NCBI GenBank assembly: GCA_949775045.1
Contig: OX459104.1
Coordinates: 10,463,655-10,527,654, forward strand
Origin: Metridium senile
Taxonomy: Eukaryota > Cnidaria > Anthozoa > Actiniaria > Metridiidae
DNA length: 64,000 nucleotides
Reading direction: 5' to 3'
A program made the translations under genes and the position numbers. Under the pieces are notes generated by a model. The model was not told where the DNA came from. It ran no database searches and was given only the letters and a program-made list of their open reading frames with translations. This document shows, piece by piece, positions 10,159 to 64,000 of the stretch (position 1 is its first letter; every line of letters begins with the position of its first letter).

Positions 10159-11224
10159 TGCTACCAATAATAAAGCTCCAAGTAAATAGAAATGGCGGTC
10201 TGTATAGGCAAGGTCAAAAGTTACCGATCATGTTTCGAGAAAGAGTTTTAGATTTGCATCACGCCAACATGTCACAACGTCAGATTGCAAATTTGACTCA
10301 AACAACTTTGTAAGTAAAGTTTTACGCGACTACAACGAAACCAACTCATCCCTACAGCCTCCAAAATCAAAACAGCCTCGATGGAAAATGACTGACGATG
10401 TTGTTGAATTTATAGAAAACGAAAAGCTGATAAAACCTAGTACATACATCGCTGAAATACAACAGAGATTAGTTCTCGATGGCGTTGTAAACCCTATAGA
10501 TGTACCGAGCACATCCGCAATAAAAAAATGCATAAGATCAGACTTGCTAATGTCTCATAAAAAAACCTTTAAAAGCGCGTTACGCCGCTGGAATCGACTT
10601 CAGCAAATAACGTTAATCTCGTGAACAACTACCTTGATCAGGTAAACAACATGAACCCAGCAATTCTGCATTTTTTTCGACGAAAGTAGTGTTAACAAAA
10701 CAAGTGGGAATAGAAAATATGGAAGCAGCTACGTTGGAGAGAAAGCTTTTGAGGTACAAAGATACGCCTCAAATGCTACATTCACTAAAAATCTACTTCA
10801 CTCATTGCAAGGTGTGGACTATATGAATGTCTTGAACGGTGCTTCAAATGGGAACGAGATGCTGTTTTTTGTTTTTTGTTTTTTTGAAGAAGCCGTTGAA
10901 CTAGTCAACAGAAATGATGGATCTACTGTTCTAGAAAGAGGAGACACAATAATAATGGACAATTGTGGATTTCATCACGGCCATTTTATTGAGCCTCTCG
11001 TTACAAATATGTTGGCAGACTATGGCGTTCGCCTTCTATTTCAACCACCGTATTCTCCCCACCTAAACACCTGCGAGTATTGCTTCAATCAAATAAAGTG
11101 CTACTTAAAGCGTAACCAGCTTCTTGCAGAACAACAAACAGAGGTTGCCATATACAATGCCTGCTTGGAAATAACAACAGGAAACTCCTCAGCGCACTTC
11201 AGACACTGTGGATATTTATTGTAA
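10159..11224 (+). pseudogene. IS630/Tc1-mariner-family transposase, frameshifted
   Basis: ATG at 10,159 begins a helix-turn-helix region (FRERVLDLHHANMSQRQIA, then VSKVLRDYNETNSS after a frameshift near 10,313). The catalytic core shows FDESS at about 10,683, IIMDNCGFHH at about 10,955, and PPYSPHLNTCEY at about 11,050-11,080. That is an Asp, an Asp and a Glu, with 38 residues between the last two. The xDN and PPYSPxLNPxE blocks are diagnostic of the IS630/Tc1/mariner group. These enzymes cut out the element at its inverted repeats and insert it elsewhere. At least three frameshifts (near 10,313, 10,600 and 10,680) make it inactive. The 38-residue spacing differs from the 34 of classical Tc1. 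Confidence 0.8.
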
Positions 11225-12669: not shown

Positions 12670-13517
12670 ACACAAAAGAACTGAACTTGAATTGAACTTG
12701 AATCGAACAACGTACAAAGTCATGTTTTAAGTTGAGTTTTGTGAAGCTTATGTTCTAGTTTATATCCGGCGTTATGATCATGTAAACTTTATATAATAAA
12801 CTTGGTTATTTCATTTTGAAATAAAATCAGAATTACTAGTTCGTTTTACAAGTTGTACTTATACAATATCTTGCACAATATCTTCACATTTATATAGTAT
12901 AATAAATTTTGTATTTTTTTGTATTTTGTGACAACCGTTATCAAAACTACGAACACTTGATTTATTAAAAAGCTCCAAAACGTTTACAAATTATCATCCG
13001 AGTTGTTAACGTTGATTGGTTTAGTCGGGTTTTATCGGGAATCGATTGTCTGTAGGTCGATTGTGATTGGACAGTTTTGTTCAGGTGGGCCCACTTAGTG
13101 TGTCCGCACTGTAAGACCAGTCTAGATAACATATAATTATAATTGTAACAATAATATGACATCAGACGTCATCCCATTAATAATGAACTAGACGGCTTCA
13201 TTACGATTATGTAACTATTTTCTCGGATTAGCTTGAGATGATTTGAAGCGAAAAATATGTTATTTTTTTGGCCGTCCTCCTTTTTCCCTTAGGTCCGTCG
13301 TTCCGTCAGTCCGTGATCCGCTTGTCTGTCACGCTTTTACCTGGATCGATCGATCTTCGGTTCACATGCGAGTTCAAAGAGTTTCTAAGAAAGAGTGTTA
13401 TTAAGTTGTTCTTGCAAAATAAACGCCAGAAAAAGCAAGATAGATAGTCACTGAAGCTATTGGTGTTATATTTGAGGCGATTTAGGCTGTTGGGTGTAGT
13501 TTTCAGAGAGGCCGTTC

Positions 13518-15488
13518 AAAAATGTGGCGTGCCATTAAGTCTGTTCTTCCTGTAAACAAAACCTCAGACGTCTATGCTTTACTTAAAAATGGTGAATTGT
13601 GTAAAGACAATAAGACAATTGCTGGAATCTTCAATGACTTTTTTTCGTCCATAGGAAAGCGATTGTCAAATGCATTTGATAAACATTTTCGAGGTGGTAT
13701 GAATGATTTTAATGATACTCACAGTTTTAAATTTTGTGCCGTTGATGAGAAGTTTGTCCAAGAAAATCTTAAAAACTTGAAAACAAACAAAGCATGTGGC
13801 CTTGATAAAATAAGCGCCCGCTTATTAAAAGATGCTGCTGAAGTCATATCACATTCATTGACTCTACTGATAAATAAATCACTTGCAGAAGGTTGTTTTC
13901 CCGCGACATGGAAATCAGCAAAAGTTACAGCTTTGTTCAAAGGGGGTGACAAGTCCTCCAAGGACAATTATAGACCAATATCCATCTTGCCTACCATAAG
14001 TAAAATAATTGAAAAAGCTGCCCATATTCAACTTTACGGCTACTTAGAGGAAAACAATTTATTATCAAATGCACAGTATGGTTTTCGTCACAAGCGCTCA
14101 ACAACATCAGCATTAATTAAGTTTACTGACAACCTTCTCGATAACATGGATAAAGGACAAACGACAGGAGTAGTATTTTTGGATACGAAGAAGGCGTTTG
14201 ATACGGTGAACCATGTTATTCTGATCAAGAAATTGAAATCACTAGGTGTATATGGAAAAACTCTCCAATGGTTTAATTCTTATCTTAGTGGAAGGACCCA
14301 GAGGACAGTTTGTGGCAATGAAATGTGTTGTTCCGCTAAAGTGTCTATTGGTGTCCCGCAAGGTTCCATTCTTTGACCTTTGCTGTTTCTGGTTTATATT
14401 AATGGCATTCGTGAGGTAACTAGACATACAACTATGACGATGTTTGCTGATGACATGGCTATTTCCTATTCCTCAAAATGTTCAAGTGATCTTCAAAATA
14501 AATTGAATATTGATCTTGGAAGCATCGCAGCATGGTTAAATGAAAAACTGACACTTAATGTTGAGAAATCTAGACACCAGGTCAGCTGAAGAAGATAGAG
14601 AATATTCAACTTTCTGTGAACTGTAAGTACTTTGAAAGAGTCAAATCTTTCAAGTACTTAGGAGTCATTGTGAATCAAAACATGACGTGGAGTGAACATA
14701 TTGAATACATCCGAAGTAAAGTTACACAGCGACTTGGTATTCTCAAACGTTTAAAACATCTATTACCCATGGACACTAGAATAATTTATGTTAACACTAT
14801 GGTGCTTCCTATTATTGAGTATGCATGTCTAGTATGGGGAGATAAGAACAACAAAGTGCTGATGAATTAATTGCAGATCCTCCAAAATAAGGCTGCGAGA
14901 CTTGTCCTCAATTTACCATCATTTGTCTCTGGATCAGAGGCGTTGAAGATGCTTAAATGGCAAAACCTGCATACAAGAAGATCAGTCCAAAGATTCATAT
15001 GTATTAACTTGTTCACGATCAGGATACTTGTAATGTCAGAACTGGTTCTAATATCCATTCTTACAACACAAGAAACAAAGATATGCTACGAACTGAGAAG
15101 TCTAACTTAAATAAAGGTTTACAAAAATCATACAATAGCTTCCTGGGAGAATGGAACGCTTTACCCACAGAGGTAAAATACTTACCAACAAAGAAACATT
15201 TTATAAAAGCAATTTTGAATAGATTTAATGATTAGTCGTTTGGACAAACTTTATATGTTGAAGAATTTTATCATTGACATTTATATCTTACCTAGTTTTT
15301 AATTTTTACCTACAGACACTTGAAGAATTTCATCATTGACTTTTAAATCTTATCTATTTTTATAATTTGTATATATCTTTCTTATTTAGTTAATTATTTA
15401 TAATTTTATTTATGTATTCTTTGTTTTATACAGAGCCCTACTGAAAAGCATTTTTAAATGATGTAGGCCATCTGTTTTAAAAATTGTA

Positions 15489-15776: not shown

Positions 15777-16014
15777 TGCACCAGTCAAAATCAAATCGTG
15801 TCCTCGGGACACAGGTGGGGATTGGTATTGAACAGTGAGGGAAATGTAATAAATGCCCCACCATATGGGGACAAATTTTTGGGAGAATAGGGGAAAATGC
15901 CCCACTTCCTGTGGCAACTAAGGCCCTAATTAATACACCAAAAGCCATGAAGCAAATCAGTCGATGGGCTCATTTGAATAAGAAAGGAAAGTTTTTGCGT
16001 ACGCGTTCAATCAT
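15777..16014. other. No gene seen; junction between block A and a retrotransposon fragment
   Basis: Similarity to block B stops at about 15,776. The following ~240 bp contain a short ambiguous ORF only. Confidence 0.3.
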
Positions 16015-16818
16015 TCGTTATTTCACGGACGCCTTCCCTCTGAGTGGAAAGCCGCCGACGTCACACCGATACTCAAAAAAGACTCTAAGAAACTAGCTGA
16101 GAACTATAGACCGATCTCTCTCCTTCCAATTATTGGCAAAGTTTTGGAACGTTGTGTTTGTAAAAGGCTTTATGATCACGTAGATCATCTCATCTCTCCT
16201 TTACTACATGGATTTCTAAGGAATCGCTCGTGTACCACTCAATTAGTGCAAGTCCTTCACAGCATTGGACAAAACCTCGATAAGAATATACAGACTGATA
16301 TCATTTATCTGGATTTCTCAAAGGCAATTGACAGTGTCGACCACAAACTTGTCTTATCAAAACTAAAGTCGTATGGGGTTAGGGGGCGCTGTCTAGACTG
16401 GTTTAGTGATTATCTTACTGATCGAACCCAGTGAGTGGTTATGGAGGGTGCGGCATCCAACTGATCACGTGTTACGTCTGGTGTGCCTCAGGGAAGCATA
16501 TTAGGCCCTATGCTCTTTGTTTTATTCATTAACGATTTGCCAGACATTATACCTACTGGTATAAAGGTCACCTTATACGCCGACGACACAAAAGCGTACA
16601 ATACTATCAAATCTGATGTCGACACCCAGCAACTACAACAAGCCCTCTGCTGTCTGGACAACTGGAGTACTCGCAACAATCTTAAATTTAATGAATCCAA
16701 ATGTAAAGTGCTAACGATAACCCGGAAGAAACTGCCTCTTCTCTTTGACTACAAACTTGGCCCGACCGTTCTGCCTACAGTGAAAGACGAGAAAGATCTT
16801 GGTGTAACCGTCACTAAT
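16015..16818 (+). mobile_element. Second non-LTR reverse transcriptase fragment (Jockey/CR1 group)
   Basis: Readable motifs include [61 protein letters not shown] and TLYADDTKAYN, covering fingers and palm with the catalytic YADD. A stop at about 16,432 and a frameshift at about 16,030 disrupt the frame. The 3' end is cut exactly where the X repeat begins (16,819). It is clearly a different family from the copies at 13.5 and 39.5 kb. Confidence 0.8.
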
Positions 16819-31857: not shown

Positions 31858-34800
31858 TCAAGGTTTTATCAAGACATAGGGAGGATAAGATGCATCGCCT
31901 CGGAAATTATAAGGTGCCCTTATTGAGGGATCTTTACATTTAAAGCAACTTTTCATTCCTTTGCTCCACCATTCGACAGCCTTACAGTCAACGGTACATG
32001 CATCCATACACTGTTGTTTGGTTTTAGGATTTCCAATAGGGACACGATTAGCAATTGTGCACCAGTATGGAGTGTATTCTTTCCAAACTAAAATAATAAA
32101 GTAACATGCACCAATTACAAATGGTTATCTTTATCAGTATCACTATCGGTATCATCACCATCACCATCACCATCACCACCACTACCACTATCACCATCAC
32201 CATCACCACCACCATCACCATCACCACCACCACCACCACCACCACCACCATCACCATCACCATCACCATCACCATCACCATCACCATCACCATCACCATC
32301 ACCATCACCATCACCATCACCATCACCATCACCATCACCATCACCATCACCATCACCATCACCATCACCATCACCATCACCATCACCATCACCATCACCA
32401 TCACCATCACCATCACCATCATCATCACCAACACCATCACCATCACCATCACCATCACCATCACCATCACCATCACCATCACCATCACCATCACCATCAC
32501 CATCACCATCACCATCACCATCACCATCACCATCACCATCACCATCACCATCACCATCACCATCACCATCACCATCACCATCACTATCAATATTCCGTAA
32601 ATTCTGTGGAATATTATATCAGTTAAATATACCATGTTAATTTTTGTATTTTGCTATTGTATATTTAGTATTTATTCAAATAAATACTTACCCTTTTTCA
32701 GCTTGTACACATAGTTAGTGTTCGCTACACCAACACATACAGCATCGTTGTCATCTACACACTGATTGACATAATCTGGTATACACTTGCTTGGATCTGC
32801 ATTCCCGTGCTTATTGTAGTCATTTCCACTCCAACATTCACCATACTTCTGAAGACCAAAGTATTGGTGCCCTTCTTCTTTTGCTTTGGCAGCACATCGA
32901 CAGGCTAGTCTGTTAACAAATAAAAGTATCTCTGATCTCTGATCTCTGCTATTCACAGCTCAACATACTCTCCAGCAAAATATGCCTCCCCCTAATACAT
33001 TGATTGTATTAACCTTAACCTTAATTGTATTAACCTTAACCTTAATTAACCTTATTCTATTTGTGCATGTATATTTGTTAAGACCAGTCTTGATAACATA
33101 TAATTATAATTGTAACAATAATATGACATCAGAGGCCTGTTATGGGCCCAATACCCGCCTAATCCTGCAGCAAGATTAGGCGGGATTAAGCGAGATTAGG
33201 GGAGATTAGGACATTTTGGGATTTTCAACCTTGCGGGGACAGGCAAGGTTAGGCGGGGTCTGGCGAGATTAGGCGAGATTTGACATTTTAGGACTTTTTT
33301 GCTAGCTGGGTTAGGCGGGGCTAGGCGAGATTAGGTGAGATTAGGACCAAATAACAGGCATATCAGACCTCCCATTAATAATGAACAAGACGCATAACTG
33401 CTTGAACTCTGGCTACATTACGATTATGTAAATATTTTCTCGGATTAGCTTGAGATGATTTGAAGCAAAAAATTTGTTATTTTTTTGGTCGTCCTCCTTT
33501 TCCCTTAGATCCGTCGTTCCGACAGTCCGTGATCCGTTTGTTTGTCCTGCTTTTATGCGGATCGATCGATCTTCGGTTCACATGCGAGTTCAAAGAGTTT
33601 CTAAGAAACAGTGTTATTAAGAAAAAGCAAGATAGATAGTCACTAAGCAATTGGTGTTATGTTTGAGGCGATTTAGGCTGTTGGGTGTAGTTTTCAGAGA
33701 GGCTAGGCCGTTTCAGCTGTTTATTTGTTGTTGTCGAGCTCGACCTGGAGGTTTAAAACTTGTCACGTAATCTGACATATTGTAAAGAAAGAAATGTTAC
33801 TTTCATCGCACATTTACATCTACATGTACATAGATCGCTAAGTGGAACTGCTAGATAAAAGGTTGAAGCGATTTTTAAATCGCAAAACTTAAAAGTTTTG
33901 CGAATAAGTTTGTTGTTTTGTGCAAGAAGCTAAGAGCTCGGCAATCGCCAGTTTCAATCGCAGATCTGAAGATAAAATTAAACTATTGACAGATAAACTC
34001 GTTATTTTAATCAAAATTATTAAGAAATAATTACAAGAAGCAATATATTTACCCTAAACATCACTAAAGTATTATTCTGTTGTTGTCTTCACTTCTAGTG
34101 CGCTGTATCGTACTCTCTAAGAATGCTTAGTAACAGCTTCGTCCTTTGTAACTGGTTGTGAATCCATTCCATAGCATTATGAAGGGATGGATAAAAAGTA
34201 GCTTCTGTTTATAGCAGGGAAGATTTTCCAATAAATTTCATCATAATAAGTTGGTTCTCTTAGCTATAGTTCCATTGTAAATTGCATGATCTTTAGTAAA
34301 AATCACAGTGGCCCTTTCCGAAAACATTCGACATAAACTTAAGCGTAATTCTACTGCGAATCATGTGGTGTGAACGTATAAAATATGAGAGTATTTGCGA
34401 TTAGTTCCGCCGAGAAATCATTCCTTCGACGAATCAAATATCCATGTGCTCGTATGTGCCAGTTTACGCATGCACTGTGATGACGGCGTTTTGCGACCGA
34501 AGACGACGAAGAAAAATAACACGAAAGCCCATTTTAAGACTCGGGCTTCGTTTGGAAATCCCGAGTAATTATAACGACATAAAGATTTTGTATATAACTC
34601 ACTGATTTCCTTGGTTGAAATTAAAGGTACAACGAAATATTCCTGGTAAAATTATTTTTCCTGTAATAGTCCATTGAATCCTTGAATTAAGGCCTGCCTC
34701 CGGACCTTAAATCGCGCTAAATCGCACTAAATCGCCTTAAAACACGCTAAATCGCCTTAAAACGCGCTAAATCGCCTTAAAACGCGCTAAATCGCATTAA

Positions 34801-37800: not shown

Positions 37801-40800
37801 ACACTAACCAACATCAAGATAAGATGCGAATTGGACTTTAAATCTTCATCAGTGGTATGTAGAAATATTAGCTTTAATAATTTCGTTACTGTTCAGTCCC
37901 TGGTTTCAGAAACGTTTGTTTAATCTGGAAAAATATCTACTACAATAAAGATTAGATTCTTATTGTTGGAGGTTAGCAATATTATACAAATTCAAACAAA
38001 TGTTTCTTAGAAAATAGCCAGCAATCCTTAATGAAAGCACCCAGAACGTATATAATTATTTAATTTATATGTATATACAGAAAGATGTACAAAGGAAGTG
38101 TTGTTTAAAAGTTTTGATGATAAAAATATTCAAAATAAAAAAGATATAAAAATGTTGTTTTGCAACTGGTTTCATAGTATTAAACTATGTTAAAATAATT
38201 GATAATCATTGTTTAAAAGTGCTTTAATTGTTACGCTATTTGCACTCTATTCTATTGTTTTAACAAGCATCATGTTGTACTATTTTGTATTTCATGGATA
38301 TAATATTTGCACTCTAAATCAATTATGTAAATGAATCACAGGCATTCCTTATATTAATATAAAACTGACCTTTATTGAATACAATTTTTGATGTGAAGTT
38401 TAAACTGGCCTTTGCTTACTAGAAGTATTATATTTATATGATATTTTGAACAATGATACCTTTATTTTCAAATTTCATTAAATGAACTTAAAATGTTGTT
38501 CATTTTTACAAAAAAGAATTACTTAAACCACCAGAAAATGCATCTTCTTCACCATATATTTTCTTAAACATCCCTAAATCGCTGTAAATTGCTTAAAATT
38601 GCCTTATGGCGCCTCTGATTTTCTTATATTTTTTCTTAAATCGCCTTAAATCGCCTTAAACCGCACTAAGACGCCTTAAAACTTCACTCGAAGTTTGGCC
38701 ATATTTTCTTAAATCGCATTAAATCGCCTTAAAACGCTTTAAACCGCATTAAATTACGGCGATTTAAGGTCCAGGGGCAGGCCTGAATTACGATTGCGTT
38801 TATACAAATACATCGATATATATCTTATGAGAAAAGAAACCTAAAACACTTCTTTATTCAGGTGTTCCTTGCATACAATTTTTACTAAGATATACTTGTA
38901 TTCCTTCTAAACTCTCGCAGGGATACCAACAAATTGTTAGTAATTGTTAGATACCAACAAAAAGTTTTGGCCGAAGAAGAAAATAGACTTGGACCGAATA
39001 CAAAAATGAAGAAATTTAACAGTAGAAAAGGAAAAGACTGAGAGGCCAAGAAAGTATGTCTGTAGATAAAATCTCGTAGAAGTATAAAGACTACAGCAAT
39101 GTAAAAGAATTGAAAAAGAAGCGACTTTATTCGTTAATTATGAAAACTGTCTTCAAAATGCTTCCTTCAGTACAGTTTATTTATGGATTTTCAAGCTTGG
39201 CAGTTTAACTATGACCCATGTTTAATTCATCGAAACTGATTGAAGTACATACATGTATTCGTCAAAATATTATCGATGTCATTGAAAAGAAGAAAACCTC
39301 AGGAAAATAATCTCCGATAAAGTAAGTTCAACGGATTATTTATTTGAAGTTTTTTGAGAAAAAACTGTTTGATAACGAGCGTGAAAAAACACGGCCTAAA
39401 AACTTGAAATAATTAAGCTTCAAAAAGAAGAATCTGTTCTCTGATTTATTATAGAAAGAAAAAAGAAAACGTTTATCTCCGTTTGATTTATATGGATTTA
39501 TATGTCATATAATGATACTCTTAAATCTATATATGACACAATTGCTCCTGTACAGACCAGATGCATAAGACACCGTATCTGGGCCCCTTGGTACTCTGAT
39601 GATCTTCGATGAGCTAAACAACTTAAACGACAAATAGAACGGAAATTCAGATTAAAGTCCAACCTTACAGTCGATAAAGAATTACTCTTGGAATCCTTTA
39701 AGAAGTACAACTCTCTACTAGAATCCTCAAAAACATCTTACTACAAGAACAAGATTGACCAAATTGACTGCAAGAGCCTGTTCAAAACAATTGACGCCAT
39801 GTTCTATCATAGACAGACAACTTTACCATCAAAAGAGTCTAGAGAAGTATTAGTTGAACAGTTTAATGACTTTTTCACCCAGAAGATTTCCACAATTAGA
39901 GATTTACTCCATAAATCTTGTGACAAACAAACCACCTGTACTGTAAACACACAGTCGTCTCAAGCTCGCTCAAGACCTAAATGAATTCCATCTTCCTGAT
40001 GATCTGTCAGTGCAGTCCACGATCAAGTATTTGTCATCAAAGTCGTGTCCTTTGGACCCACTTCCTACTCACCTTGTTAAGAACTGCCTGCCGTCTCTGC
40101 TGTCCTTCATAACCATGATTGTTAAAGAATCGCTATCAAATGGGGAGTTTCCATCAGCCCTCAAGTTGTCCTATGTTCGTCCTTATCTCAAAAAGCCAGA
40201 CCTTGATAAAGAAGCCTATGCAAACTACAGACCAGTTGCAAATATCCCGTTTCTGAGTAAGATCATTGAAAAGGTTGTATCAACTCAAGTTTACACATAT
40301 CTACTTGAGAATAACCTTATTCCATCATTTCAGTCTGCCTTCCGCCGACATCATTCCACAGAAACTGCGTTGGTTCGAGTGACTAATGATATCCTGATGA
40401 GTCTTGATAATAAACAACAAGTGGCACTTATTCTATTAGACCTGTCCGCCGCCTTTGACACTTTAGATCATGACATTCTAATTGACAGATTTAAGAACTA
40501 CTTTAACATCTCTTGGAGGGTACTGGAATGGTTTCAATCGTATTTACAAGGACGAACTCAATCAGTTATTATTGGTGAAACAATATCATCCCCAGGTGAT
40601 CAACAATATGGTGTACCTCAAGGCTCGATCCTTGGCCCCTTACTCTTCATCATGTACATAGCTCCTGTTCAAGACGTCATTCTCAAACACAATTTAAGCT
40701 GCATGTTCTATGCAGATGATACACAGTTGTATATCACTATCGACCCTACCAATTCAACTTGCGCAACTGACCAGCTTCGATCCTGCGTAGAGAGTGTCAT

Positions 40801-43108
40801 GCATTGGAACGCAAATAATATGTTGATGTGTAATCCAGAAAAAAACAGAAGTAATTATGTTCTCGTCTCGATATAACAAAGACCTAACTATAACACCGAC
40901 TTTCACTTTTGGTGACACCACGATTCATACCACTAAGAGTGTAAAAAACCTGGGAGTACTGCTTGATAATCAACTTAATTTTAACAACCAAGTAAACTTG
41001 ATGTGTAAGAAAGCTATGTTAGCAATTAGATCTATTGGTCGTATAAAGAAGTATCTCACACGTGACAACCTAGCTAAATTGGTAAACTCTTTTGTGACAC
41101 CTCACCTTGACTACTGCAACAGCATATTATACGGTCTACCCAAATCGGAAATGTGACGCCGGTGTTAAAAGATCTACACTGGTTGCCAGTGGAATTCAGA
41201 GTGCAATATAAGATCCTACTACTTGTGTATAAAACTCTTCATGGTCTTGCACCAGCATACTTTGACAGCATTATCACAAAACACCAACCTGGCCGACAAC
41301 TTCGCTCATCCAACAAGTCACTATTTAACGTCCCCGCCATGAAGACAAGTACATACGGCAAAAGATCCTTCTCCCACGCTGCAGCAAGTCTTTGGAACAA
41401 ACTTCCTGAACAAATGAAATTAGCTGAATCGCTGTCGACATTTAAATCGAAATTGAAAACACACTTATTCAGAAAAGCTTACTTCAGTGACTTTATGAAC
41501 ACCCAACTTTGATTAACTATTCAATATTAAATAATTTATTATTATATATATAAAAACAAACATTTTAACATAGTCATATTGTAAATATATATTAATTAGC
41601 ATATAATTAGAAACATTTTTTTAATTTTTTTTTTGTAACCGCATTGAGCATTGTAAATGCGGAGAAAAGAACGTCATATTATTATTATTTACTTTTTGAG
41701 ATACAAACCGTACATAACACGATGTTTACAAGTGTGTAAATTGTACTTTTTGTGGTATTTGGTCGATTCAAAAAGGGATTTATTTATGTGCTTTTCACAA
41801 ACTCATTAACGGAAAACATTAAAGATGAATTAGAATACAAACATAATTCAAAACTGGTTGAATAACTTCTGTTTATTTAGCAATATTGACTATTTTATGT
41901 TTACTAAACGAACATTTTTATTATAGTTTCTATTTCAAAGTTGTTAAAGTTTTTTTACAGAACAAAATGATGTTTTACACAAAATAAAATACCTTGTTTT
42001 AACATCCTTGTCTTTTCAAATCGATCCTGTGTTGGTAGAACTGATACTTGAGGTCTTTAATTCCACTTCAAAAGAATTTTCAGGTCGTTTTTGTTTTGTT
42101 TGAATTTTGAAGATTTGCCATGACTCCTATTTTTTTTTTGAATAGTAAATCTAATTCGATGAAAAGGTTTTTTTTTATAAAGAAATGTTCTAGAATTCCC
42201 TTTTTTCCTTTAAATACATAGTTACCATCCTATTAAGTACTTGTTCAAGTAATTTTTTTGTCAATTTGAAGCTCAAAATCTTGATTTTTCTCAGCGTTTT
42301 GTCAATGGGACTTTATCATGCACGCTGTGTCGTGCGTGACACAAGTCACGCTGTCACAAATTTTTGTACGATTTGACCTCAAAAAGTAAAATCTAAAAAT
42401 TCATATCTTTTTCAAAAACGCGTGGATACCCCTCATTTTGTTTCTCTAGAAACGTTATAGTGATATCGAAGAAAAATGGGTTGGGTTGGATTTTTTAGTT
42501 AATAATTCATTATGCACACAAAATACCTTTTTCATAATTTGAGCATAAAATTATTGAAAAATATAGTATGTTGTACGCGTGATAAATAAGATTTTTGACT
42601 TTTAATCGAAAAAATATATATCGCAGATAATTATTTGCTCATAAAGTAGACAGTTAAAAGTCCGTTCCACCTATATCTAGAATTTCGTTACATAACTAAA
42701 ATAATTACAGTTTAGATTGCGCATGGCCCGTGCACAAAAACTATTTACATGCACATATTGATGTTGTAAGAACAATTTAAACTGGGAGCTCCGCTTTTAG
42801 GTATTACCTAATTTGTATATTAAAGCTGTTTTGATTATGTTATGATTTTCATATGTAAGATGATGTGCAATACACGAGAACATTCTAGACATGTCATCTT
42901 TTTCTATGGCTGTAATTGTTTGTATGTTAAGCTTACCCACTAATGGATCCTGTGAAATTGTTCCAGTCGATTCGGTGGCCGTCATAAGTAGGATTGGCAT
43001 TGTCCCTTTCATTGAGAAGCTCTGAAGCTAATGCTCTGTCATCCTGAACATCTTTATAGCAACCAACCTTTTCGTAGCCCATGTCACATTTGTCATATTG
43101 TTCCCAGG
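31858..43108 (-). CDS. Secreted cysteine-rich protein gene (block B), three frame-consistent exons
   Basis: Exons, 5' to 3': 42,937-43,108; 32,692-32,909; 31,858-32,087 (stop TGA). All have AG/GT borders and the phases fit: GG joins A (Gly), and G joins TT (Val). The product runs [20 protein letters not shown], then [42 protein letters not shown], then [22 protein letters not shown], ending in LIKP. The GCYKD...ALPSELL and FGLQxYGECWSG blocks are familiar from cnidarian extracellular proteins of unknown function. Candidate upstream exons lie at about 43,306-43,395 (FLDGAWNCERDN) and about 51,360-51,450 (GQYGDIYKG), but their phases are unresolved, so start and signal peptide are missing. The ~10-kb first intron is filled by X copy 3, an L2, element W and smaller insertions. 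Confidence 0.7.
32150..32588. repeat. (CACCAT)n microsatellite, ~440 bp, in the last intron
   Basis: Near-perfect six-base repeat with a few CAC-only variants near its start and one CATCATCACCAAC interruption at about 32,417. It is open in four frames, so the long ORFs it yields are artefacts. Confidence 0.95.
33134..33359. mobile_element. Small hAT-like MITE with internal GATTAGGCGA repeats
   Basis: Ends GGCCTGTTATGG and CCAAATAACAGGC are inverted. Flanks ACATCAGA and ATATCAGA are an 8-bp duplication with one mismatch. Block A lacks the insertion at about 13,155. The interior is a run of AGATTAGGCGAGATTAGG variants. An 8-bp duplication suggests hAT, without other proof. Confidence 0.7.
33932..34689. 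other. No gene seen; end of block B 3' part
   Basis: Similarity to block A ends at about 33,931. A segment at about 34,480-34,570 (CGACGAAGAAAAATAACACG, then CGGGCTTCGTTTGG and ATCCCGAGT) resembles, inverted, the insert at 43,906-44,530. Confidence 0.35.
34943..35085. repeat. Long hairpin, ~52-bp arms, with hammerhead-like sequence in the loop
   Basis: Arms start ATTATGAGAGTAGGTTTGAG and are almost perfectly complementary up to GGGTC/GATCC. On the minus strand the loop region reads CTGATGATGTCGGCGTCC, which begins with a hammerhead-type CUGAUGA box and a possible stem II, but the second box is AAAA rather than GAAA. This may be a Penelope-like terminal structure in inverted arrangement. Confidence 0.5.
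35086..36446. other. No gene seen; interior of element W
   Basis: AT-rich, only short ORFs without motifs. Simple CATGTA repeats at about 35,215-35,235. Confidence 0.35.
36447..37273. mobile_element. Second TAGCCTGCG-ended element (Mutator-like), 827 bp
   Basis: Inverted repeats of ~135 bp begin TAGCCTGCGTGGCAGGCTCT and include a purine-rich stretch (GGGGAGGGGAAGGGG type). ATAATA flanks both sides, which is shorter than the 9 bp seen for the related element at 30,562. The shared first nine bases suggest the same transposase family. The interior (about 36,600-37,120) has no clear ORF. Confidence 0.65.
38965..42793. mobile_element. Repeat X, copy 3 (right part), split by an L2 retrotransposon
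   Basis: It matches X copy 1 from about 17,405 to the terminal GGGAGCTCCGCT. Shared landmarks include GGATTTTCAAGCTTGGCAGT and GTACATACAT...TTCGTCAAAAT. The left X end is missing and is replaced by a repeat shared with 20,125-20,260. Its uninterrupted sequence near 42,757 provides the empty site for the element at 18,889. Confidence 0.55.
39485..41695 (+). mobile_element. L2-type non-LTR retrotransposon, 5'-truncated, nearly intact reverse transcriptase
   Basis: After a short linker region (APWYSDDLR, stop, [13 protein letters not shown]), ORF 40,010-40,876 covers the reverse transcriptase: [66 protein letters not shown] and [11 protein letters not shown] one-base shift near 40,860 leads to [15 protein letters not shown] stop at 41,153 after YGLPKSEM lies where about 40 residues are normally found, and then [20 protein letters not shown] to a stop at 41,510. 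Motifs and the HTEXA/LHWLPV tail are typical of the L2 clade. The 3' end is a short (ATT)n. The endonuclease domain is absent, so this copy is dead. Confidence 0.85.
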
Positions 43109-54223: not shown

Positions 54224-54704
54224 TTAAGGTTACGGTCCACGTTCGCGGTGTTCTTTCACATGCTCTCAGTTAAAAGTGTGTTTACCGCGTCATGTTACAA
54301 TAATAATAAACATATTATATATCATTTTAAAGCTTATATAACAGAGAATAAGACTCTGTATGTTTTGTTACATACAACAATTTTCTGTAAGATATGCTCT
54401 TCGAAAAACCTCAAAATTAACCGTCTTCAATGCGAGTTATTTAAAGGGGGACTAGCACAAGAATACTACGAAAGTGAACTGCAATTTAACATAACCTTTT
54501 TAGCTTTAAATGATGAAAAATAAGTAATTCCTTCTTATTTTGCCAAAAAAAATGGTGTTTTAATGCATTTACCTAACAAAAATTGTCATTAAACCTACTT
54601 TGAACACCTATTCGCCATCGCTGGACTGTCGCCTACTTGGCCCGCATTTTTTTGTACAGCGGTCTGCGCGTGATGTCAGTTACTTGATAGACTTGGCATA
54701 CAAC

Positions 54705-57080
54705 ATGGCTTCTGATTCAGAAAGTACTGACTATTCGAGCGATTCAGAAAGCGTTACTATGAACCCAGGTGAAAACATTCTCTCTCAGGACGATGAGGAC
54801 ATAGAGCCGATCGCTACTGAAGAGGAGAACGAGTTATATAGACAAACTTTAGCCGCCGAAGAAGAGGAAGAAGCGATGCTAAAGAGACGTTATGAAGAGC
54901 AAGACGTTCATTCGTGGTATGTTTATAATACTTACCATCGATTTCTTACCTTAAAATGAATGGTTTTGTGTATTTTTTTTGATAATTATTTACAGCAATT
55001 TTACTGTTTCACAGGTGCAAGTGTACACACTGCTCTTTGGAGTTGATAACAAAGCCGGAGGAATGCTTTTGTTGTTGCGACATCGATCGGTGTCAAGAAA
55101 GGCTAGCAGAGCTCGTCGAAGAACCGCCAGCATGTATAACAGATCACCCTGGCTTCTCATCTGGCTGTCTAGATGAGTGGGTACTCCAGATAGCCGCCAT
55201 CGGATTGAAAACGCGGAAAAACAAGCGCTATACTGTTATGTACGAGGAAAATCGCGTTGACAAACACAAGTAAGATATATTTGACTTTAAGGCCCGGGCA
55301 AACGGTTTCAACATTTGCTTCAACATTCGTTCAATTTTGTTGATTTAAACTCTTTCAACATTGTCGAAACGTGTTGGATCAGTGTTGAATCAAAATCGAA
55401 AGGATGTTGAAGCAAATGTTGAAACCGTCGGGCCTTTTAGCTTTTAGATATTTGATAAATTTTTTTCGTATTTGTATACTATACCTAATATATAGATTAT
55501 TCATTATAACTTCATTGTAACTATTAATTTCAGATTGTAATTGCCATTGTTTCTGTGACCTGTAAATTTTACTGTTTTGTATTTAGAGTAAGGGTGTTTG
55601 ATACTAGTGTTAACCACTTTCCTATATTATCTTAATTTCTTGTTTGTAAATTTATTGTGTGGAAAATAAAACCATGAACCAACTTTAGAGTTTTTGTCGA
55701 ATTTCACATTTCTCTCTCGTGTATTCAAGAGCAGACACAATAAATTATTTAGGGATTTTGAATTGTTTGAACAATAAATTGATTGTGATCGAGGTCTCTA
55801 CTGTATTTATTACTTACTTTTTATTATTTATTTGTTGTTCATTTGTCAAGAAAAATAATTTATTGTATTTATATAGTGCTTATACACACAACTTGAGATG
55901 CCAGTTTCATCTACATGAACATGTCCATTATTTTTTTATTTCTTTTTAGTGTGGTCACACTTTATAATCAACCATTTACATTTCTAGGTTCTTACGATCA
56001 GTAGCTTACCGCCAGTTTATAAGACTGGTATGGGAGTATATTGGCAAATCAAGAAGGCTTCCTTTACCTTGCTGTGCCTATGATAAGATCAGAAAACAGT
56101 TCCCATCTGAAGATGGACAATACAAGGGCTTCGAGGAGGAAGATGATGAAGAACAGAATGACTCAGAGGTAAACATTCATATATTTGATTATAGCTGATA
56201 TGATATAGTGATGGTGTTGATGAACAGAAAAAACAAAAACATTTAAAACAACTATTATTCGGTCACAATATCAACAAATCCTCACTGAATAGATATTTCA
56301 AAAATTTCAAAAATCAATTTCAAGTTATCAATAATTTTTTTTAAACTAATTCCTTGTATTTGTCCCCATGTTATGATTATTATGTCTGTTGCTGACACTG
56401 GCTTCTGTTGTGCCCTTTCATTGGCTGTCCACATTTTTTGCATGAAGGTGCCTTTCTTTGTTTTGGTCCAATAGTCGTCCATTGTCGAAGTTGTTCATCT
56501 ACAAAATTAATACACATGAAAAATGTTTATTGTGGTTATCTATGTATTTTATATATTACATACCTGTACATGTTGGTGGGACTATTGTTGTTGCTTTTGC
56601 TTTTCTTTGCCTGTATTTAGCCATGGCATCTAGTTTGGAATCTTTATCTAATCCAAAGCACATTGGCCCAGGAACACTGTTGTCTAGTTCAATTTCCATC
56701 TCTTTTAACTTGTCTCTTGGTGTTGTGATCAATGTCATATAAATCTCATCAACATAACCTGTCAATGAATATCAGATATAATTGTAGTACTACCAGCAAG
56801 TATTTTTTTAAATGATATTTTTTTTTTTAAAGTAAATTTACCAAATTTTTGTGGTATTTTTTCTTCCTTGACTGTTGCTTCTCCATACTTGTATTTTGGA
56901 TAGTGTACTCTGAGGTTGGCTTCACCATGATCATTTACTACTGACTCTCTTTTCACATTATAATTAAAATGCAGTGCTGCCAGATATGATCTAAAATAAA
57001 CGAATCATATCAATGGATTGGAATCAATTATCTTTTTTGTTATTCAACAGGATTTGGATGAGGAAGATGATGAACAATAG
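54705..57080 (+). CDS. P2X7 cytoplasmic-tail (ballast) domain protein encoded by the transposon
   Basis: Four exons: 54,705-54,916, 55,015-55,269, 55,988-56,168 and 57,051-57,080. All have GT-AG borders and phases that join cleanly, giving 225 residues. Residues 1-70 are acidic and Ser-rich (MASDSESTDYSSDSES). From 71 the cysteine-rich domain reads WCKCTHC, EECFCCCDIDRCQERL, CITDHPGFSSGCLDEWVL, VAYRQFIRLVWEYIGK, LPCCAYDKIRKQFPSEDGQY and KGF, the same order as the C-terminal ballast of vertebrate P2X7 receptors, which binds zinc and guanine nucleotide. No transmembrane segments, so this is not a channel. The tail is a run of Glu/Asp. An upstream in-frame ATG at 54,600 would add 35 residues. 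I prefer 54,705 because the extension is unlike the rest. Its role in the transposon is unknown. Confidence 0.85.
55290..55435. mobile_element. 146-bp MITE in intron 2 of the ballast-domain gene
   Basis: Inverted arms begin AGGCCCGGGCAAACGGTTTC and TTTA lies on both sides (55,286-55,289 and 55,436-55,439). Loop ~50 bases. Lying inside the intron, it should not affect the spliced protein. Confidence 0.7.
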
Positions 57081-60000
57081 AAGATCTGGGTGTTATTATT
57101 ACTGACAGGTAAGTAGTTAGTTGTTTATACATTGTATAGTCTAGTACCTGCTTAGCATTCCAAGATAAGAGTACGCCAACATTTTAGGGGCAAATTGATT
57201 TATTACCGAGTGGTACCCTTCTAAATAACTTGTCTGACCATTTGAAGAGGCCTTTTTTATTGCTGTTGTAATATTGGTTGTACTTAGGGCATCAACAAGT
57301 TTTCCATATGCTTCTGATCCTGCAATTAATTTGAACAAACAAACTTCTAATTCTGCCAAAAATGCATTGTAGCTGATACAAATGCATTTTAATATTACCT
57401 TTTGTCATCCAGACCCTTTCTTTGGTAAGAGGATCATGAGCACAAGCATTAAATATGCGATTTGGCAATTCTTTGTGGACATTTATCACATGTGAGAAAA
57501 AACTTTGAAATTTTGCTAGTTTAACCTCGCCCAGAAGTTCCTTGGTTGTTGTTACTGACCAATAAAAGTGTCTGACACACTTTTTTCTCCACCGCCCAAT
57601 TAGTTCACATGATTTCTCTTTACTTAATTTGATAAGTATCTTCTGGATTTCTTATAATAGAAACAAATATATAAGTTTACAATTTTATCTGCGGTATGCA
57701 GACATGTAATACGTTAGGGCATATATGTTACACAATGCAAAAATGAATTTGAGCTATCAGGAGGTTGACAAGATCCTTTTTGAAAATTACATCACTGTGA
57801 TTTATTTGAAACTTTGTTGTTTCTCTGGCCTACTATGGGTGTAAATGTAGGTGTGGCATAACTACTTACTTTTTGCAACATGCCAAAGGTCATAGAAATG
57901 ATGTACTACAGGCTTCCCAAGTTCTTTACACATTTTGGGACATTCTACACGCATCCATTTTCCAATAGACTTATGTCGATCAGAAATGAATGACTTAATT
58001 ATCATTCCAGTAGTGAACAAGTAGGCAAATGCCCTTTGGTGCCCTAAAAATTCCATAGCAGTACTGCTACCAGCTTCATTAGCCTGAAAATAAAATCACT
58101 TAATAACTTATTTATTCTTAATTCTATATTTTTTGTTAGGTGATCAGTGAACCATGAATCCAACATCCTTTGTACAACCCAAGAAATGAATCACAGTGAC
58201 AGTCTTCAGCCACACATAACTACTGGTACTTTAAAGTGTTGGAGACACACAGGAAGGCCATAGTTTATACTGTTGTATAATTAGTTCACTTTAAACATGA
58301 CTTTAAAAATCAATGTTAAAATACCTGAATTAAAAGAACATCAATAATAAGGCCAATAGTGCAGCATAAGATTGAGTATGTACAGTATTTTGCAGAATGC
58401 CCCATGGAATCATGCCTCCCATCACCAGCCAGGTCTACTTCTTTTCCATCTATACTGTCAATCAATTTTTGCTTGTACGAACGCCAAAATGTAACAACAC
58501 TTGGTATAAGTAAATGGCGCTGATGGTAGTAATATGTTGTTTCATGATAAACTAACAGATTCATGTGCTTGAGTACAAGCAAAACTTTTCTTATGGATGC
58601 TCCTGCACACAAAACTGCAAAACTCAGCAGTAAGTTGCCAGCAGGAATCCTTCCAAGTATTTTGGGCTGACTTTCCCAGATATAAACCTTCTCACATTTC
58701 TGACATTTGGAAGTTATTACAATGTATGTTCCACTTTGCTTGATGTCGATATCAGGTTTTGGACAGAAGCAGTACCGACAGAACTGGAAAAGAACTAGTA
58801 GCTTAGATAGGAAAACAATTGCTTTTGGTTCGTTGCGGGCATCCTTTTCTTCTGTGTCCAATCTAAAGATGAAAAGAAAATAGCAGACTACATTGTATTA
58901 ATTAAATAGAAATGTAACTTTAATTGTAGCATGTAAAAGTATTTTATTGCATATCTTAATGCAAGTATTAGATTGCAAACATTAAATGTGGGGAATACTT
59001 TGCACTATTCACTACTACATAGTACTGTATAAACAATAGAAAACAATAGAATTAGCATAATATAGTACTATTTTCTACAATTTATATTGTAGACATTTAG
59101 TGTTTGCACTATATATATGTATACTGCTATAAAGCTAGGGGTTAAACACTGGAACACACAATCATTAATTCTTAATAAATAATCTTGTTTTTAATTTGAA
59201 TAAATAGCAAACCTGGTGTTACATGTGACTTTTTGAGCTATAGTTTCATCGTCGTCTCCATAATCTATATACTGTTGGTCATTATCCTCCGGTATTTCTT
59301 CTGGCTCTTCTTCAAGGGTATGTTGCCCTTCCATGTCGAGCAATTCCACGGGACATTCATTGTCACTGGGAACCCATTCTTCATCAGATGTTTGCCTCTT
59401 GTTTTCCTTTTCAGGAAAATCATATGGATAAGTCTGAGTAGCTAGAAAAAGAAATACATTTATTATCATTATTGTCATCATTAATTATATTTTTTCTTGC
59501 TGTCATCATAATTATTATAATCCATTTTATTTTTTTTATCAGTTATTTTTATATCTATTGTCATTATCAATTATGTACTTTGTGTACATTGTTTTCTTAC
59601 TTTTTGTTGAGACCACTGGGGCTTTTTTTGTGTTGGTAGCCAATGCACTCAGCAAATCTGATTCACTTTTTTTCATTCTGCGGATTTTGGTTTGCAGGTT
59701 TTTTACTTTTGTCTTAAGATCATGCTGATTGTTATCTACAGGACTGCTGGCACTGCTACATGTAGGACTAGGATTTAGGTTTGATACCTACATGATTAAT
59801 CAAAGAAATATGTGAGTTTTATGAAAGTACTAACTGCATGGTCCAAAATTAATTATTCAATATAAAAGAACTATTTTGTGCTATGTAGTTACTGAGTTGT
59901 TTCATAGCACCACATAACTTTTAAACAACTGAGCAAATTAAGACTAAAAAGTAAAGTTTTGTCAGTTATATGTGTCTGAATTGTCAACTTACTGACTGTG

Positions 60001-61311
60001 TATTAATAGAAACTTGTGGGAGCTCCAACTCTACTGTTGATGTAGGACTAGGATTTAGGTTTGATATCTACAGGATTAATCAAAGGAATATTTGAGTTTT
60101 ATGACTGTCACAGTGTTATGTTATAAGACTCTATAGCTACAAAGTAAAGTTTGGTCAGTTACTCATGTATGTCTGAATTGTCAACTTACTGACTGTGCAA
60201 TAGAATTTTGTTGGTGCTCCAACTCTAGATCTACTGTTGTTGTTGTTTTTGTTAATTCTACAGCTATTGGTTCTTGTGGTGAGGCTATTTGGTCTTGGAC
60301 TTGGTTTTCTTCTGGAGAGGCCACCTTGGGTACTTCCACTGTAGGTCTTCGATCAATTCCCATGTCTTTAAGCATCTAATTGTAAGGAAATTTTTCATCG
60401 AAGCAAAACAAAACAACTACTAACTTAGACTCGTCAGATTTCAAACATCGCCGTATCAGTGCTAAGTACAAAATATAAGTCGTGAATTACAAAAATCATA
60501 CTTTTCAACTTGATTTTGTATTTTGTTTATTTCATTTGTTTATTCATTTACGTGTATTTTCCATGTAGTAAGGTTAAATACAACGCAGTACGTGTCTATA
60601 TGTCCGGGTGCGTGACAGAATATTGTCAGGGAGTCGAATTATTTTTACGCCTGGAAATCTCGACTTAATACGGTGAAAAGAATGATTTGGTAGAGCTAAA
60701 CAAAGTAAAGTATGTTTTACTAAACTAGTATGCTATTCTGCAGTGATTTTTTAAAAATTAACATGTAGTTATTCGTGACCTAGTGTCAGGCACGCGAACA
60801 TATACATACACTGACACTGCGTAAATACAACATCGATCACAAAACAGCTAGCTTAGCTAGCTCAGAATTAAAGTTTTACAAACGACATGAATAAGTTTTC
60901 TATAAATTTCTGCTCGAAAAACTGTTAAAATTCAGGAGAAGGACTTTAGCTTATAATATTTATAATATTTACACAGTCAGCAAAACCTACCTTGCGGCGT
61001 GTCCTGTCACTGAACTTGTTATCATTTGGACCTTCGTCGCCGGCTGGAAACCAGATTGTGGGTACAGACCCTTTGATTAAGAATCTCTTGATTCCTTGTA
61101 CGTTCATTACTCGCTCAAAACAGCTTCCTTCGAAATGCTTTGAGCACACAACAAATCGATTTTGCGGCTCAAAGTTCGCACTGTGAATGTCAACAAAGCG
61201 CTTCCATTTGGCACATTCGGTCTTGTCAGTAGGCGAGAGATGCAACGAAATGCCATTTTTTGGATCGGATTGGTTGCTACAGCCCTGCACAACACATCTA
61301 TTTGATGGCAT
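56380..61311 (-). CDS. Kolobok-type transposase: THAP domain, DDE core, C-terminal CCHC zinc knuckle
   Basis: Twelve exons, 5' to 3': 60,991-61,311; 60,190-60,375; 59,993-60,067; 59,601-59,787; 59,213-59,441; 58,325-58,862; 57,870-58,083; 57,399-57,650; 57,148-57,319; 56,842-56,990; 56,564-56,758; 56,380-56,498. Lengths sum to 2,637 nt, 878 residues plus stop. Every junction has GT-AG and keeps frame. THAP (DNA-binding zinc finger, C2CH): Cys6, Cys11, Cys56, His59 and SVPTIWFP. Exons 2-5 are a linker rich in Ser/Thr/Glu with a coiled coil (LKTKVKNLQTKIRRMKKS). The core has GDGRHDSMGHSAKYCTYS (Asp480), IKSFISDRHKSIGKWM (Asp547) and SYLEGYHSVINQFAPKM (Glu701), the likely catalytic triad. The C-terminus is CKKCGQPMKGHNRSQC (CX2CX6HX4C). 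The donor of exon 5 (GTTTGC) is weak. It should cut and paste the surrounding element. Confidence 0.88.
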
Positions 61312-62123
61312 GCTGAAAAAACTATGTTTGTCTGCTTTTATCAGTTATGAAATTATCGCGTGTTTTGCTTCTCACCTACAGATTCTCTCAGGTTGGTTTA
61401 TTTCTATCAAGTAACTGACGTCACAGATCTCGGCCCAGGCTCTTTACCGAGTTAATGATCAAGCGACATCTGAAAAATGGCGGGTCAAAAAACACCCGTT
61501 GAAATGAAGGTCTTACGCTTAGATTTAGCAAAAGAAAATCATGTGGCTTTTTAATGATATTATAAAGATTATAACAATCGAGTTTTTAAGCATTTTGAAT
61601 TAATTTTGAATTTTTGGCCCATTTTCGTGCTAGTCCCCCTTTAAAAAAGTATAAGTCAAAAAGTTCATACTGCTTTGCCGTCATTTCTTCGTTATGTCAA
61701 TCAACACATATAGGTCTTCAAAATATTGTCCATTTGTTTTGATAACATGCTTAGTTTTAGAGTTATGGCCCAATTTGTTATTTAACTGGAAGTTTTAACA
61801 ATGAGTCGACTTTGAAAAACATCTATTTCAAGAACGAAGCATTTTATCGGTTAAATGACACATGTATGTGCTGATTGACATAATGCAGAAATGACGGCGA
61901 AGTAGTAGGAAGTTTTGGACTTATACTTTTTTTAATGAAAGCGCTCGATTTTGAGGTTTTACGTGAAGCATTGGTTAAAGCTATTATTTTTCTTAAAAAA
62001 ACTTACATAGTCTTATTCTGTTATATAAGCTTTAAAATGACATATACTTTGTCTATCTTTATTGTTAAGTGACGCGCTAAACAATTTTTAACTGAGAGCA
62101 CCCAGCGAACGTGGAACGTAACC

Positions 62124-64000
62124 TTAAGAACAATAAAAGACAGAAACAAACTCATATATTTTTTGCTTTTAATAATGCTAACAACTGGTGTTTACAATAG
62201 AAATGATCAAACACACCAAATGGTTCGATTACGCATTCGCACGAAGCAAGAAGTTATAAAAGTATGACTTGCAAATCTCATCTTTCTAAGTTGAACAGAA
62301 ACTTAAAGTTCGATGATGAAATATTATTTCCAGCCATAAAAAATATCAGAGTCTCCACCCATGAAAAAGTATTGTTCTCTTATACACCCAAATTTCCCTG
62401 TGATTACAAATATATATTTCGAGACATAGATTTGATGATTCTATATAATGTTTATGTTTGAATCTATACGTGGTAGTCCACCCATAAAAAATAATAGAGA
62501 GTCCACCCATGAAAATATATCAGTGTCTACTCATAAAAAAGTATTGATCTCCAAACAATCCATATAGATATATCGGTTTTTATCAATTTCAAAATTTCCC
62601 TGTGATTACAAATTATACATATCGGGACATATAGAAATCTTTTGAAATTCTTGCTTTTTGCTAACAAATATGGATCATTATACTGTGTATAAGTAATAGA
62701 GCACGCGAACTACAATTTTTGTCCAAGATAAAATGGACGAAGACAACTTCGCAACATAGCAAACAATTTCAAAAACACCGTATTACAATGTGTTTCACCG
62801 AACACTACCAACACCACAACTTTAAAATTCACAGCACATCGCAGCTTTGGAAAATATCAAACACATCACACTGAAGTTATTTACTTCACCGTGCCACCGC
62901 ACTGACAATGTTTTCACCGCGCAATACCTGAAAAAGTATTCATCAACACCGCAATCCCCCATGTCCCCCTTAAACAGATATGGAAAACGAAAATTCTGAT
63001 ACATTGCACTTTCTCTTTTATTAAAGACAAAATCGCGTAACAACCAAGGTCGTTTCACCTGATCATAATTTATTTACCAAACAAAATGTAAAGAATGTTT
63101 AGGAAGTTTGTGTAATGATTACAATAAAATTGATCTATATAATTATTCCTCGAGCTATGAGACGCAGATGGTGAGATGCCTCGTATTTGGAATATGCATT
63201 ATAATTCATCATTTCATTGCTTTGGGAATATATTATTTTAAATTACGCTTTCTTTTTTCATTTAGAATCATGTATGGTCCTAGAAAAACAAGCACATGGG
63301 CGCTAAGCGAGAGAATAAATAATTATAATTTTCTCCCCTCGTCTAGAATACTATACACGAACAAATTGGAATAAAAAACGCACACGTTTCGGACGTGCTT
63401 TAGCTTATTAAATTGATTTTAAAGGTTTGTAGTAGCATGATATATAATATAACAAGTAATTGATTAAGACTTTGACTGGAAATCAAAAGAAAGAAATTGT
63501 TGTCATTCTTACTTTTCTCCACTGCTTAAGAAAAATAAAAAAATGAGACAAACTCATATATTTTTTGCTTTTAATAATGCTAACAACTGGTGTTTACAAT
63601 AGAAATGGTCAAACACACCAAATGGTTCTGTTACGCATTCGCACGAAGCAAGCAGTTATAAAAGTATGACACGCAATTCCCATCTATCTAAGTTGAACAG
63701 AAACTTAAAGTTCGATGATGAAATATTATTTCCAGCCATAAAAAATATCGGAGAGTCTCCACCCATGAAAAAGTATTGGTCTCCGATACACCGATATAGA
63801 AATATCGTTTTTTATCAACTCCAAAATTTCCCTGAGATTACAAAGTATATATGTCGAGACATAGATTATATTTATTCTATATTAAAGTGTTTATGTTTGA
63901 ATCTACACGTGGTAGTCCACCCATAAAAAATAATAGAGTGTCCACCCATGAAAAAATTACAGTGTCCACTCATAAAAAAGTATTGATCTCCAAACAATCC
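62124..64000. repeat. Dispersed repeat family, right flank copies
   Basis: 62,128-62,640 and 63,540-64,000 are two copies of one unit (shared CTCATATATTTTTTGCTTTT, GCTAACAACTGGTGTTTACA, TCCAGCCATAAAAAATATC and TCTCCACCCATGAAAAAGTA). 63,108-63,520 repeats the left-flank unit. The uninterrupted junction at about 63,513 is the empty site for the outer TTAA element. A stretch around 62,700-63,060 is unique here, with CACCGC/ACACCG-rich sequence and no supported gene. Confidence 0.7.

Follow-up and report, generated by a model that had tools for sequence, protein, structure and literature searches.

Does a transposon carry, as a gene of its own, the domain that P2X7 ion channels bear as a cytoplasmic ballast? 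This question is raised by a locus in a 64,000-nucleotide stretch of the genome of the cnidarian Metridium senile (GCA_949775045.1, contig OX459104.1, positions 10,463,655 to 10,527,654 of the forward strand), which as a whole is called the window here. We found that positions 54445 to 61640 of the window hold an element with two genes, one for a transposase and one for a separate ballast-domain protein, KolX, and we consider it highly probable that this element is a cut-and-paste Kolobok transposon of the Kol0 type that is autonomous or was so until recently; that assessment covers the identification and not the role of KolX.

Kol0 families have been reported to encode KolX, a protein with the ballast fold, in vertebrates, annelids, cnidarians, and sponges; P2X7 has been described as having arisen when a P2X4-like gene fused with KolX, and Nanor as a likely domesticated copy (Kojima and Bao, 2022, PMC9587614; cited here, like the other papers, from excerpts). 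A preliminary description of the locus knew of no transposon that carries the ballast domain, but one had been published in that 2022 study; the link between KolX and P2X7 is already in print, and what is new is this copy and its details. The ballast domain had been described across animals earlier, in a paper whose excerpts do not mention transposons (Rump et al., PMC7016195). Among the matches listed for KolX or Kolobok, the word KolX occurred in PMC9587614 only; one review mentions Kolobok and P2X7 together, once.

Ends, insertion site, and transposase

The boundaries and repeats of the element are the following.

54228-62123, no strand: palindromic, TTAA-flanked miniature inverted-repeat transposable element (MITE) within which the Kolobok inserted; 696 bp without the insert; ends GGTTACG...CGTAACC
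54441-54444, no strand: left TTAA target-site duplication, from the sequence
54445-61640, no strand: probable Kolobok (Kol0-type) transposon; 7,196 bp, exact 14-bp terminal inverted repeats, TTAA on either side
54445-54458, + strand: left terminal inverted repeat, AGGGGGACTAGCAC, exact match
54670-54691, + strand: 22-bp subterminal inverted repeat, left copy, here TGATGTCA; 225 bp in from the left end, with 13 bp between it and the KolX ATG
61403-61424, - strand: right copy of the 22-bp repeat, containing TGACGTCA; 216 bp in from the right end, with 91 bp between it and the transposase ATG
61627-61640, - strand: right terminal inverted repeat, exact match to AGGGGGACTAGCAC
61641-61644, no strand: right TTAA target-site duplication, from the sequence

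The two ends are identical over 14 bases, and their similarity fades further in. When AGGGGGACTAGCAC was sought in the window with up to two mismatches allowed, it matched only at these two places, both times exactly, against a chance expectation of 0.02. Two features by which Kolobok transposons are recognized were found here: TTAA stands directly outside both ends, and the termini have the form 5'-RR...YY-3' (AG...CT). The two copies of the 22-bp repeat have opposite orientations, differ at one of 22 positions, and each lie upstream of one of the two start codons; no such pair more than 1 kb apart arose in 200 first-order Markov shuffles of the element. P elements also contain internal inverted repeats besides their terminal ones (PMC7776569), and the 22-bp repeat may serve as a promoter element or as a site for THAP or KolX.

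The flanks of the Kolobok are two parts of one palindromic, TTAA-bounded MITE. A copy of the surrounding repeat that is free of the MITE lies 1.2 kb downstream (63301-63702); it is identical at 210 of 232 and 164 of 178 columns on the two sides, which join at a single CTTAAG, and the empty site of the MITE is precise. The joined Kolobok flanks were also aligned, across the junction, to the mirror arm of this MITE; 376 of 530 columns are identical, there are 58 gaps, and TTAA stands in both. The GG...CC ends of the MITE, together with TTAA, suggest that it belongs to a nonautonomous family of the Kolobok type.

The larger of the two genes was modeled from the sequence as follows.

56380-61311, - strand: transposase gene, 12 exons
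Exons 1-6, - strand: 61311-60991, 60375-60190, 60067-59993, 59787-59601, 59441-59213, 58862-58325
Exons 7-12, - strand: 58083-57870, 57650-57399, 57319-57148, 56990-56842, 56758-56564, 56498-56380

The predicted protein has 878 amino acids and a terminal stop only. Exons 1 and 6-12 are backed by homologs, and the support for exons 2-5, which encode a variable linker, comes mainly from frame and splice signals. Within the linker, a mini-exon is tandemly duplicated together with its splice sites (59760-59824 and 60040-60104, 94% identity; 59944-60033 and 60137-60227, 84%), and both copies are in frame in the model. Pfam identified a THAP domain (PF05485, E 1.1e-12), which Kolobok transposases usually carry (PMC6004289). 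An HN match to the linker (E 0.015) fell below the cut-off and was taken as chance.

We found 43 homologs of the transposase, led by proteins of stony corals and octocorals with up to 67% identity (P0022) and followed at lower ranks by those of a jellyfish, a flatfish, aphids, and frogs, Xenopus among them. We aligned 17 of these homologs with the window protein (18 rows): D480 and E701 were each kept in 17 rows, D547 in 13 (with E in three and gaps in two), and D577 and H580 in 14 each. The window transposase has all of these residues, that is, a DDE triad with a DxxH between the second D and the E, a pattern that fits the published Kolobok signature (PMC9587614). Zinc-finger-like residues were also found between the DxxH and the E (C653 in 17 of 18 rows, H637 and H655 in all 18), and on the reading given in that paper they would form a zinc finger. 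A C-terminal CCHC knuckle (C859-C862-H869-C874) was present in five rows, namely those of the window, three stony corals, and one octocoral, some of the other 13 rows being partial. In a predicted model of the Montipora homolog P0021, which is 47% identical to the window transposase (mean pLDDT, a model-confidence score, 71.5), the RNase-H core matched those of the ISCth4, Hermes, and P-element transposases; as to a GTP-binding insertion domain like that of P elements, predicted helices follow the second catalytic D. The P-element and THAP9 transposases share the THAP domain and the RNase-H core with the window protein.

Like the published Kol0 transposons (Kolobok-1_XT type, PMC9587614), the element has TTAA, 5'-RR/YY-3' termini, a DDE transposase, and KolX as a second gene, the last identified by a PF20478 match and the fold of a homolog. 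Possible differences from published Kol0 elements are a 12-exon transposase gene and a 4-exon KolX gene with interleaved 3' ends, the CCHC knuckle, and the 22-bp subterminal inverted repeat. The frog relatives among the transposase homologs carry no lineage labels. The preliminary description had spoken of a TTAA-flanked, 7.2-kb, two-gene Kolobok element with a full THAP-DDE-CCHC transposase, and each of these points agrees with what we found. A two-gene design is also known from Harbinger transposons, which encode a transposase and a Myb-like accessory protein; their accessory domain and transposase family are unrelated to those of the window element.

The ballast protein and its relation to P2X7

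The KolX gene (54705-57080, + strand) was modeled from the sequence with four exons and GT-AG junctions and encodes a predicted protein of 225 amino acids.

54705-54916, + strand: exon 1, acidic N-terminal tail
55015-55269, + strand: exon 2, cysteines C72, C74, C77, C90, C91, and C111
55988-56168, + strand: exon 3, RSVAYRQ and LPCC..IR..FP motifs and C185
57051-57080, + strand: exon 4, acidic C-terminal tail; nine codons and the stop; the least certain exon, resting on frame and splice signals only

Exons 1-3 are backed by homologs. The two genes face each other, each starting just inside one end of the element, and their 3' ends interleave (56169-57147): transposase exons 10-12 lie within KolX intron 3, and KolX exon 4 lies within the intron that separates transposase exons 9 and 10. 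Should both models be correct, the two transcripts would overlap in antisense, and they may form double-stranded RNA. KolX intron 2 contains a hairpin repeat (55302-55428) with 38-bp arms that are 92% complementary, possibly a small MITE that inserted after the Kolobok.

The separate ballast protein of the preliminary description is confirmed by its match to the Pfam P2X7 profile (PF20478, P2RX7_C; E 9.6e-11, 42.4 bits against a gathering cut-off of 23.5). All seven zinc-cysteine positions are present in the window sequence (C72, C74, C77, C90, C91, C111, and C185). We examined their conservation in an alignment (A3) of 81 of 122 KolX proteins, which were picked by hand without a fixed rule, many short or similar ones being left out; P2X7 residue numbers were read off a KolX-P2X7 profile alignment and the motifs in PMC7016195. 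C477 was kept in 68 of 68 rows and C479 and C482 in 67 of 68 each, 13 rows being without this region; C499 and C506 were kept in all 81 rows, and C498 and C572 in 80 of 81. In 79 of 80 rows KolX also has an eighth cysteine, at a place where the three P2X7 sequences compared have V; this could be a metal or redox position that was lost on capture.

A search of PDB sequences with the single KolX sequence gave no match, and a profile search of the same sequences matched KolX to P2X7. In a Foldseek search with the predicted model of a KolX homolog, 14 P2X7 entries ranked first, and in VIA-align P2X7 was clearly separated, with the modeled fold spanning P2X7 residues from about 412 to 595. KolX and the P2X7 ballast (PF20478) have in common the seven zinc-cysteine positions, the RxxAYR and LPxC...IR..FP motifs, and, as judged from the homolog model, the fold; unlike P2X7, KolX has no channel, has acidic tails and the extra cysteine, and is without counterparts of R574 and K583.

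We built a tree from the window KolX, 38 of the 122 KolX proteins, and two P2X7 segments. The P2X7 segments formed one clade at the midpoint root, and its branch is 3.36 changes per column long; because this branch is too long, the tree cannot tell an origin of P2X7 from KolX from the reverse. The preliminary description had suggested that the P2X7 tail descends from, or shares ancestry with, a transposon protein: shared ancestry is supported by the sequence and by the predicted fold of the homolog, and descent is not settled by the tree. KolX rows of a single phylum or species were split over supported clades (two cnidarian, at least two fish, and two Ptychodera), and several species had more than one KolX cluster. 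In one-clade tests on the 39 rows without P2X7, with groups named by taxon and chosen after the tree was seen, a single clade was rejected for fish (6 rows, p 9.4e-7) and for Ptychodera (3 rows, p 7.5e-4), and was not rejected for cnidarians (15 rows including the window, p 0.094), though starred branches split the cnidarians. Such splitting is the pattern expected of coexisting transposon lineages, although host duplication and loss could give part of it.

A microbial origin was considered for ballast proteins of about 130 amino acids from metagenomes and was rejected: several start abruptly near the CC motif or with unrelated letters before CxCxxC, and the proteins are probably animal KolX exons read by a gene finder. 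PHROGs gave no family for three metagenome relatives. Scans with one short pattern each gave 17 KolX and 4 transposase matches in viral contigs and 11 KolX matches in genome contigs, none of which was confirmed; these are weak negatives. KolX and transposase clusters with the same length of longest contig (Montipora foliosa, 43,476,796; M. capricornis, 74,745,055) were given no weight, as these contigs are probably whole chromosomes.

Strength of the identification and possible roles of KolX

Several points weigh against the identification. A single copy was examined, one that may or may not be active and expressed. The Foldseek matches to P2X7 have E values of 3.1e-3 to 2.9e-2, none below 0.001. 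A 10-base gap lies directly beside the Kolobok junction in the alignment of the flanks with the MITE mirror arm, so that a base-precise insertion is not proven by this comparison and the TTAA duplication rests more on the sequence at the ends. The hairpin in KolX intron 2 and the duplicated mini-exon suggest that the copy is of some age. Finally, the small number of ballast genes per species and their ancestral linkage to two marker genes (Rump et al., PMC7016195) mean that a host gene fits better than a transposon for some lineages.

If the element is a Kolobok transposon, its THAP domain would bind the element ends, and the RNase-H DDE center would cut, with insertion into TTAA. KolX would be a soluble form of the zinc-bound domain carried by P2X7 and would act in the nucleus as an accessory subunit for efficient transposition, with a zinc-stabilized helical core and acidic tails that contact the transposase or chromatin; the two proteins would be made together from two inward-facing promoters with the common 22-bp motif. 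On balance we lean toward the view that KolX helps transposition, and we infer that the window protein binds zinc and acts in the nucleus.

A less likely alternative, though one that carries appreciable weight, is that KolX is a regulator or host-interaction factor (a repressor, an antisilencing factor, or a membrane-linked protein) that is dispensable for the chemistry of transposition. In its favor, hosts retain ballast domains in Nanor and P2X7 (PMC9587614, PMC7016195), and other Kolobok lineages have other accessory proteins or the transposase alone (PMC9587614). Against it, KolX is retained, according to published work, beside the transposase in animals ranging from cnidarians to vertebrates, which suggests that it is of direct service, and a Pfam scan of the window KolX gave no domain other than P2RX7_C, no search aimed at membrane segments having been made.

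It is improbable that KolX is a guanine-nucleotide-binding cofactor for end pairing, equivalent in trans to the GTP-binding insertion domain of the P-element transposase, with the GDP site of P2X7 as a relic. The P-element transposase does require GTP for pairing, cleavage, and strand transfer (PMC7776569), and among the guanine contacts of the mammalian site, which are not a Pfam criterion, the counterparts of rat R546, R578, and H547 are kept in 79, 78, and 60 of the 81 rows of A3. However, R574 is kept in 0 of 81 rows and K583 in 0 of 80, and the window KolX keeps only two of the five contacts (R159 and R191) and has S rather than H at position 547. In the 29 named nondeuterostome rows, H547 was kept in 12 (nemerteans 6 of 6, cnidarians 6 of 18, molluscs 0 of 5). 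The kept arginines may serve the fold, and a partial loss, with just R546 and R578 remaining beyond deuterostomes, had already been noted (Rump et al., PMC7016195). Still more doubtful is the extended proposal that KolX guanine-gates Kolobok end pairing, that the GDP/GTP and zinc sites of P2X7 are leftovers of an assembly switch, and that the 22-bp repeats dock KolX or THAP.

Least probable of all is that a single transposon copy picked up a host ballast gene, or just happens to enclose one, with no lasting partnership of the two genes: although a single copy was seen here and ballast genes stand in ancestral synteny with the two markers across invertebrates (Rump et al., PMC7016195), the genes start just inside both ends, converge, and have the common 22-bp motif upstream, Kol0 families have the same two-protein makeup (Kojima and Bao, PMC9587614), KolX forms more than one cluster in several species, its lineages run across the boundaries of host phyla, and an Ixodes protein joins a THAP domain (printed TAHP) to a ballast domain (Rump et al., PMC7016195).

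In the P2X7 ballast, the GTP/GDP and zinc sites have been described as having unknown functions (PMC9859053). A soluble, apparently intact, transposon-borne relative lets the ballast domain be tested apart from the channel, and the locus offers a candidate working copy together with specific predictions for KolX: a zinc core, a partial guanine site, acidic tails, and a shared promoter motif.

Other features of the window

A long simple repeat at 32048-32653 is open in several frames on both strands and does not represent genes. Open reading frames at 10208-11221 encode paired-box-like and DDE_3 domains, as in Tc1/IS630-like transposons, and those at 13486-14373, 15982-16431, and 39947-40873 encode reverse transcriptase (RVT_1).

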